Shown here one piece after another: positions 15,053-16,107 of a stretch of DNA of 40,869 bases. Where the stretch lies: IMG/VR virus record IMGVR_UViG_3300007351_000031, positions 1-40,869 of that record; one strand, 5' to 3'. The translations under genes and the position numbers were made by a program. Below the pieces are notes generated by a model, which searched no databases, was not told the origin of the DNA, and was given only the letters and a program-made list of their open reading frames with translations. This DNA is from a virus. The first letter of the stretch is position 1; every line of letters starts with the position of its first letter.

Positions 15053-15415
15053 ATGAATATCGACCAATTGACGATTGGCCAGGCAAAAGAACTGGCTGCC
15101 ATGTTTGGCGCGCAGAAGGCTTCCTCTTCCCGCGTCGAAGGAGATGGCCGCGCGGTTATCGTCAGAGCGCATAATGCTGGAGTCCATTATGGCAAGCTCA
15201 TTGCCTATGATGGGCGCACGGTTTGGCTGAAGGATTCCCGCCGCATGTGGAAATGGCAAGCCATGGAAGGCGTGTCATTGAGCGGCTGTGCGTCGATCGG
15301 CATAGACGCCAGCAAATCCAGAATCGAACCGACCGTTTCCAGCATCGCCATTTTGGATGCGTGCGAGATCATTGATTGCACGCCTGCTGCCGCCGCCACC
15401 ATCGAGGCAGCGTGA
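15053..15415 (+). CDS. DUF6948-like phage protein
   Basis: 120 residues from ATG 15053, preceded by GGAGGTGAGG; the upstream frame runs through the promoter and is rejected. 'AVIVRAHNAGVHYGKLIAYDGRTVWLKDSRRMWKW' matches the small phage family in which 'VRT.SAGVH.G.L....G..V.LKDARRIW.W' is conserved (DUF6948 in my recollection). It is a compact beta-rich domain of unknown role, usual in early operons. Ends TGATG, coupled to the repeat gene. Confidence 0.75.
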   Translation: MNIDQLTIGQAKELAAMFGAQKASSSRVEGDGRAVIVRAHNAGVHYGKLIAYDGRTVWLKDSRRMWKWQAMEGVSLSGCASIGIDASKSRIEPTVSSIAILDACEIIDCTPAAAATIEAA

Positions 15416-16107
15416 TGGGGACGATCAAACTTTTCGATGACGGAATCACCGCCGAAAAATTCGATGGCTACGGCTACGGCTACGGCTACGGCTCCGGCGA
15501 CGGCTACGGCGACGGCTCCGGCTACGGCTACGGCGACGGCGACGGCGACGGCTCCGGCTCCGGCGACAGCTCCGGCTACGGCTACGGCTACGGCTACGGC
15601 TACGGCTACGGCTACGGCTACGGCGACGGCGACGGCGACGGCGACGGCTCCGGCTCCGGCGACGGCGACGGCGACGGCGACGGCGACGGCTCCGGCTCCG
15701 GCGACAGCTCCGGCGACGGCGACGGCGACGGCGACGGCGACGGCTCCGGCTCCGGCGACGGCGACGGCGACGGCTCCGGCTCCGGCGACAGCTCCGGCGA
15801 CGGCTCCGGCTCCGGCGACAGCTCCGGCGACGGCGACGGCTACGGCTCCGGCTACGGCTACGGCTACGGCTACGGCTACGGCGACGGCGACGGCGACGGC
15901 GACGGCTCCGGCTCCGGCTACGGCGACGGCGACAGCTCCGGCTACGGCGACGGCTACGGCTCCGGCTACGGCTCCGGCTCCGGCGACGGCTACGGCGACG
16001 GCTCCGGCTACGGCTACGGCTACGGCTACGGCTACGGCTACGGCTACGGCGACGGCGACGGCTCCGGCTCCGGCGACGGCTCCGGCTACGGCGACGGCTC
16101 CGGCTAA
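15415..16107 (+). CDS. Gly-X dipeptide repeat protein (X = Tyr, Asp or Ser)
   Basis: 230 residues. A unique start, [17 protein letters not shown], is followed by ~213 residues in which almost every second residue is Gly and the partner is only Tyr, Asp or Ser. Six or so GDSSG blocks interrupt the alternation. ATG 15415 overlaps the previous stop, with GAGG upstream. Codon use is fixed: GGC, TAC, GAC, TCC, and AGC only in GDSS. The protein has no hydrophobic core and must be disordered or aggregate/gel-like. Related low-complexity proteins appear beside DUF6948 genes in other phages, from memory. Function unknown. Confidence 0.75.
15466..16104 (+). repeat. Degenerate GGCNNC hexanucleotide array (639 bp)
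   Basis: About 106 tandem hexamers of only three main types, GGCTAC, GGCGAC and GGCTCC, run without a frame break. The fourth obvious combination, GGCGCC, is not seen. Block GACAGCTCC recurs several times in the same setting (GSGSGDSSG), showing duplication of larger units. No stop codon occurs in the other frames either, which makes long false ORFs on both strands. Confidence 0.95.

Follow-up and report, generated by a model that had tools for sequence, protein, structure and literature searches.

A conserved phage gene pair of a predicted Sm-like DUF6948 protein and a hypervariable Gly-X array protein

Introduction

The closest described relatives of the locus analysed here are Sm/LSm proteins and Hfq, FUS-type low-complexity domains and hypervariable coding repeats. 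FUS-type domains carry [G/S]Y[G/S] repeats, and some disordered proteins are built on a sticker-and-spacer grammar. In hypervariable coding repeats, or contingency loci, length and order vary within constant ends. The C-terminal domain of Hfq is an acidic, disordered low-complexity tail that acts on its own Sm core (PMC5606850). DUF6948 (PF22253) is a family of unknown function, and its description includes neither an Sm-like fold nor a fixed array neighbour. Open-licence papers yielded no mention of DUF6948 and no description of such phage arrays or of the DUF6948-array pair.

The locus resembles each of these systems in part. The fold predicted for DUF6948 has the helix and five strands of Sm/LSm proteins, and an insertion separates its strands 3 and 4, but DUF6948 lacks significant sequence similarity to Hfq, and its low-complexity counterpart is encoded apart, by a hypervariable gene. 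As in FUS-type domains, array Tyr is regularly flanked by Gly or Ser and there is hardly any Lys or Arg; unlike them, the phage arrays alternate strictly with Gly, are acidic (Asp is about 24% of the variable residues), have essentially no Gln, and are hypervariable and phage-encoded. Array length and order vary through repeats between constant ends, as in contingency loci, yet the array is an apparently early phage gene tied to one partner gene. Its length steps keep the frame, and therefore it is not an on/off switch.

Results

The window, by which we mean the whole stretch of DNA analysed, comprises 40,869 nt (positions 1 to 40,869 of IMG/VR virus record IMGVR_UViG_3300007351_000031). The features at the locus are as follows.

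14600-14614 and 14623-14637, no strand: two more operator-like palindromes, between two divergent regulator-like ORFs
14673..14963, + strand: HTH regulator gene upstream of the pair (phrog_8 transcriptional regulator, E=1.5e-7)
14973..15016, + strand: probable operator/promoter region of the operon (palindromes and a sigma-70-like site)
14973-14987 and 14996-15010: GGGAC-N5-GTCCC-like palindromes, operator-like (palindrome scan)
14987-15016, + strand: sigma-70-like promoter site (promoter scan, 9 of 12)
15053..15415, + strand: DUF6948 gene, 120 aa, predicted Sm/LSm-like (PF22253, E=1.4e-26)
15415..16107, + strand: array gene, 230 codons (translation)
15415-15465, + strand: 17-aa start of the array gene (translation)
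15466-16104, + strand: Gly-X array, 213 aa (translation)
15562, 15700, 15784, 15814 and 15928, + strand: GDSSG blocks (translation)
16105-16107, + strand: stop codon of the array gene (translation)

An earlier note on this DNA had described a protein in which, after a 17-aa start, every second residue is Gly and the residues between are Tyr, Asp or Ser. Translation and a codon count confirm this, with the refinement that Ser replaces Gly at five positions. The 213 residues of the array are 102 G, 42 D, 35 S and 34 Y, encoded by 102 GGC, 42 GAC, 34 TAC, 30 TCC and 5 AGC codons, with zero synonymous variation for Gly, Tyr and Asp. The AGC codon, one base from GGC, stands at the five Gly positions and thus gives rise to the five GDSSG blocks, four of which have a sequence context in common. 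The array is a single tandem repeat (period 6, 106.8 copies, score 743) whose longest internal repeat spans 11 dipeptides, and it is the longest among the 162 distinct arrays gathered (median 66 aa). A match of the array to TrAA12 (PF22807), confined to positions 385-434 of the 463 in the profile, is a low-complexity artefact. A second frame (15437-16351, AT/AP repeats) stays open through the whole array and into the gene beyond it, and the minus strand also has long open frames there; we regard both as side effects of the repeat, since GGC-NNC units contain no stop in several frames. Elsewhere in the window (29936-33469, minus strand), a 1177-aa protein, perhaps a tail fibre tip, has a Gly-rich C-terminus with GGGGG tracts, of a composition unrelated to the array.

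The DUF6948 TGA stop (15413-15415) and the ATG of the array gene overlap by one base, at 15415. The window DUF6948 matches the PF22253 profile at 92.9 bits, against a curated cut-off of 27. GGGAC-N5-GTCCC with at most one mismatch occurs five times in the window versus 0.72 expected, and four of these lie within 14600-15010; the promoter scan gave three sites in the window versus 1.5 expected, which is weak evidence alone. Exonuclease and RecT genes lie downstream of the pair. The region looks like the start of an early operon, and the early-operon position beside DUF6948 that had been proposed is supported. Neighbours among relatives include integrase, replication initiation, SbcC, exonuclease/RecE/RecT, ParB and HNH genes; on this descriptive tally, made without a control region, the cassette would sit in an early DNA-metabolism region. 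Such neighbours, and the lack of a signal peptide by eye, do not favour the surface coat that had also been suggested.

An array-only peptide pattern was scanned against viral contigs, and its counts are lower bounds. It returned at least 62 complete or partial cassettes with DUF6948 directly upstream of the array. Among the matches listed, 16 loci had a Tyr-containing array without a DUF6948 match; in ten of them the sequence breaks off at the array, while three loci (L013, L079, L091) are genuine exceptions. A probable divergent DUF6948 was missed by the profile at L081, and L052 and L113 are other proteins carrying a short GYG tract. Most E-values of the DUF6948 profile at the array-scan loci were below 1e-10, although the profile was iterated on those same loci, with the window sequence as seed, and is not independent of them. 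Two strict DUF6948-only peptide patterns found relatives encoded by 525 viral contig stretches, 80 of which were taken further, and 21 relatives in bacterial or archaeal assemblies, all labelled metagenome-assembled. In this DUF6948-anchored set, the array gene comes next after 94 of 102 DUF6948 genes. Three of the eight without an array are at contig ends and two have apparent short or decayed Gly-X remnants; when contig-end cases are excluded, a clear array is absent after 5 of 99. The array gene starts at offset -13 in 108 of 172 cassettes, and its ATG overlaps a Trp codon near the DUF6948 end in 107 of these 108. In one locus (L036), DUF6948 and the array are fused in one frame. Taken from sequence, these counts indicate that the array gene is half of a widespread conserved gene pair in many phages. 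The window and its nearest relative found, L129, have only the DUF6948-array cassette in common, with nothing else detectable in 10 kb, which suggests that the cassette moves as a whole.

The arrays themselves vary. Pectobacterium phages Ymer and Amona do not differ at all in the whole 399-nt DUF6948 gene, in 1300 nt upstream or in 1000 nt downstream, whereas their array proteins have 73 and 67 aa in a different order. Eight Pectobacterium phage genomes all keep the start MSKLIKPE[KR]YG, with array proteins of 53 to 89 aa whose lengths always differ by multiples of two residues. These deposited genomes thus uphold the earlier expectations of an easily varied protein and of a conserved start with a variable array. 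One contig (L064) has five tandem array genes with identical starts (MGLKAFLKF), identical ends (EPNLTSAGATVVEE) and five different arrays; the five genes overlap (L064:1660-2970) and lie downstream of DUF6948-like and PcfJ-like (PF14284) genes. Eight related contigs (L139-L146) have one array in common as far as each contig reaches. Two whole-codon differences, GAC to TCC, separate the arrays of the close relatives L196 and L213, suggesting unit replacement rather than point mutation. These replacements, the uniform codons and the block repeats all support the proposed expansion and homogenisation. The Pectobacterium phage genomes were assembled with metaSPAdes from Illumina reads (300-cycle kit; PMC11445585), and in 17 of 81 DUF6948-anchored viral genes the available sequence ends inside the array; individual arrays may therefore be misassembled, and the five-copy L064 contig carries an equal risk. 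The L160 array has VRVRVR at its middle, as two compensating frameshifts would produce, either real or an assembly error. A diversity-generating retroelement was considered and rejected, as the window record, possibly a fragment, has no match to its reverse transcriptase (PF00078).

Codon usage is uniform within arrays and differs between them. Arrays of 30 aa or more have a median homogeneity of 1.00 in Gly codon and in wobble base alike, and nearly all fall into four dialects, GGC/NNC (82 arrays), GGC/NNT (34), GGG/NNC (18) and GGT/NNC (11). In each of the four, Ser accounts for 36-40%, Tyr for 24-33% and Asp for 21-24% of the variable residues. Ala could arise simply by combining the two base changes found one each in Asp and Ser codons, and the search pattern allowed for it, yet it was seen 31 times against 539 expected under independence, a 17-fold depletion. 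Among loci collected by DUF6948 alone, the variable residues are 39% Ser, 28% Tyr, 22% Asp and 0.8% Ala. Because all dialects keep the Ser/Tyr/Asp mix and shun Ala, selection works at the protein level, on the alphabet of the array. Over the 162 arrays, 1646 of 1683 Tyr are flanked as [G/S]Y[G/S], and Asp makes up 24% and Gln about 0.1% of variable residues. Lys and Arg are almost absent, Tyr takes about 30% of variable positions, the net charge per residue is about -0.12, and 98.5% of arrays of at least 40 aa have two or more Tyr. Array composition is overdispersed, as expected from repeat turnover alone. A structured RNA was rejected, as the window array RNA folds less well than 20 of 20 shuffles (z=+9.95) and Rfam has no match to the array. 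L167 and L187 use an unusual alphabet (Val/Glu/Phe or Trp/Leu), still alternating with Gly and beside DUF6948.

DUF6948 is predicted to adopt an Sm/LSm-like fold. AlphaFold models were made for the window protein (39 sequences) and for L090, another homologue (47 sequences), with pLDDT values of 95.0 and 95, respectively. In Foldseek searches of the PDB, the best 50 matches of both models are all Sm/LSm proteins or LSm-type subunits, including the LSm-type chain C of the NatC complex; the best E-values are 6.8e-3 (window) and 1.9e-3 (L090), with none below 0.001, and the probability is 1.00 for the best match. The L090 model fits archaeal AF-Sm1 at 2.1 A. The model order, helix-b1-b2-b3-(helix)-b4-b5-helix, is that of the Sm fold with the insertion. 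At the sequence level, hhalign of DUF6948 against Hfq was not significant (0.45% probability), and a profile search of PDB sequences with DUF6948 retrieved no Sm protein, its sole match being to a Cas6 (E=1.5) and due to chance. The top viral matches are other DUF6948 proteins, and named Sm-like phage proteins, including a cyanophage Sm-like protein, rank lower. Strong charge complementarity with the array was not borne out: DUF6948 is weakly basic (median +2) and the window copy neutral, and therefore charge alone would not hold the pair together.

The array protein ends within 3 aa after the array in 115 of 155 complete genes. Some array proteins carry further domains at the C or N terminus, of at least three kinds, and the terminal domains of the longer array proteins have no clear match in Pfam or PHROGs. 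A common C-terminal domain (PCYIV...FAHG...LTGSC..GR..F), perhaps an unnamed family, occurs in L023, L071, L073, L078, L104, L137, L236 and L238 and has no Pfam or PHROGs match; another unnamed domain (GRACNGG...GPLxVCTxRALHAT) stands behind the array in L110, L154 and L069. RTX or calcium-binding nonapeptide repeats were rejected, with GGxGxD in 1 of 162 arrays. DxDxDG is found in 40 of 162, and the arrays may bind metal.

Discussion

We propose that DUF6948 and the array form an early two-gene phage module. In it, an Sm-like protein would cooperate with a disordered, acidic polymer bearing tyrosine stickers, and the composition of that polymer would count for more than the order of its residues; we give this reading slightly less than an even chance. 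The array gene, overlapping the DUF6948 end, is probably translationally coupled to it. From its composition, we infer that the product would be a disordered acidic Gly polymer with Tyr stickers and Ser/Asp spacers. Both the gene overlap and the single fusion point to joint action with the Sm-like protein, comparable to the cis action of disordered tails in Hfq and some LSm proteins. Together the two may build or tune a multivalent assembly on nucleic acid, either an RNP or a condensate, in early infection. Repeat recombination or conversion would reshuffle the array while selection holds its alphabet, as expected if its work depends on composition and valence and not on exact order; order would then be free and the alphabet fixed. 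The RNP or condensate role is the one we favour, on indirect evidence. Speaking against this reading are the modest fold-search E-values and the non-significant comparison with Hfq, the weakly basic or neutral DUF6948, the 5 of 99 DUF6948 genes with no clear array, and the overdispersed array compositions. It is a more doubtful proposition, though a conceivable one, that the pair is an RNP-like module of phages from many host phyla, in which an Sm-like ring protein and a separate, hypervariable, composition-constrained tyrosine-sticker polymer organise an early nucleic-acid condensate.

Variation may itself be what is selected, if the array is a reshuffled bait for, or blocker of, a host defence protein in an arms race. 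Hypervariability between constant ends, the early position and the five tandem variants in L064 would all suit such a decoy or inhibitor. However, alphabet and composition stay constant over very different phages and dialects, unlike those of a target-specific binder, one array is unchanged in the eight related contigs, and searches with defence-related models returned no match, so we consider it unlikely. Constraint on composition only, and the usual lack of any other domain in the array protein, would fit an array that serves an active Sm-like protein in trans, as a passive tail for solubility, spacing or the prevention of aggregation. Tyr is a poor solubiliser, yet nearly every array of at least 40 aa has two or more, and arrays are also joined to other domains; a purely passive tail thus seems to us rather improbable.

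Two further readings take the array as incidental. Internal homogeneity, block repeats, 6-nt length steps and overdispersion are what neutral microsatellite growth in a dispensable short gene would produce. Against this, an array follows 94 of the 102 DUF6948 genes, which are spread over many host phyla, and its frame is kept, and four independent codon dialects arrive at one composition depleted of Ala, which leaves neutral growth a poor prospect. A recombination hotspot or structured RNA, with translation incidental, would explain GC-rich repeats beside recombination genes and a cassette common to otherwise unrelated phages. The bases differ between dialects while the amino-acid mix persists, the array RNA folds poorly and Rfam offers no match, and a role at the DNA or RNA level is therefore highly unlikely.

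We know of no system that combines Sm proteins, FUS-like domains and hypervariable repeats. The arrays, acidic and without Gln, lack the uncharged, Gln-rich composition that defines FUS-like prion-like domains. The pair joins two unknowns, an Sm-looking domain of unknown function and a three-letter protein whose order changes fast and whose composition hardly changes. The many natural arrays offer a data set for finding out which features of disordered proteins are visible to selection. The pair is present in deposited genomes of phages of Pectobacterium, Iodobacter, Vibrio and Chlorobiaceae, which makes it testable at the bench. Annotation can miss such genes: in Iodobacter phage PhiPLPE, a 78-aa array gene (L133:1189-1461) lies where the deposited record has no annotated gene.
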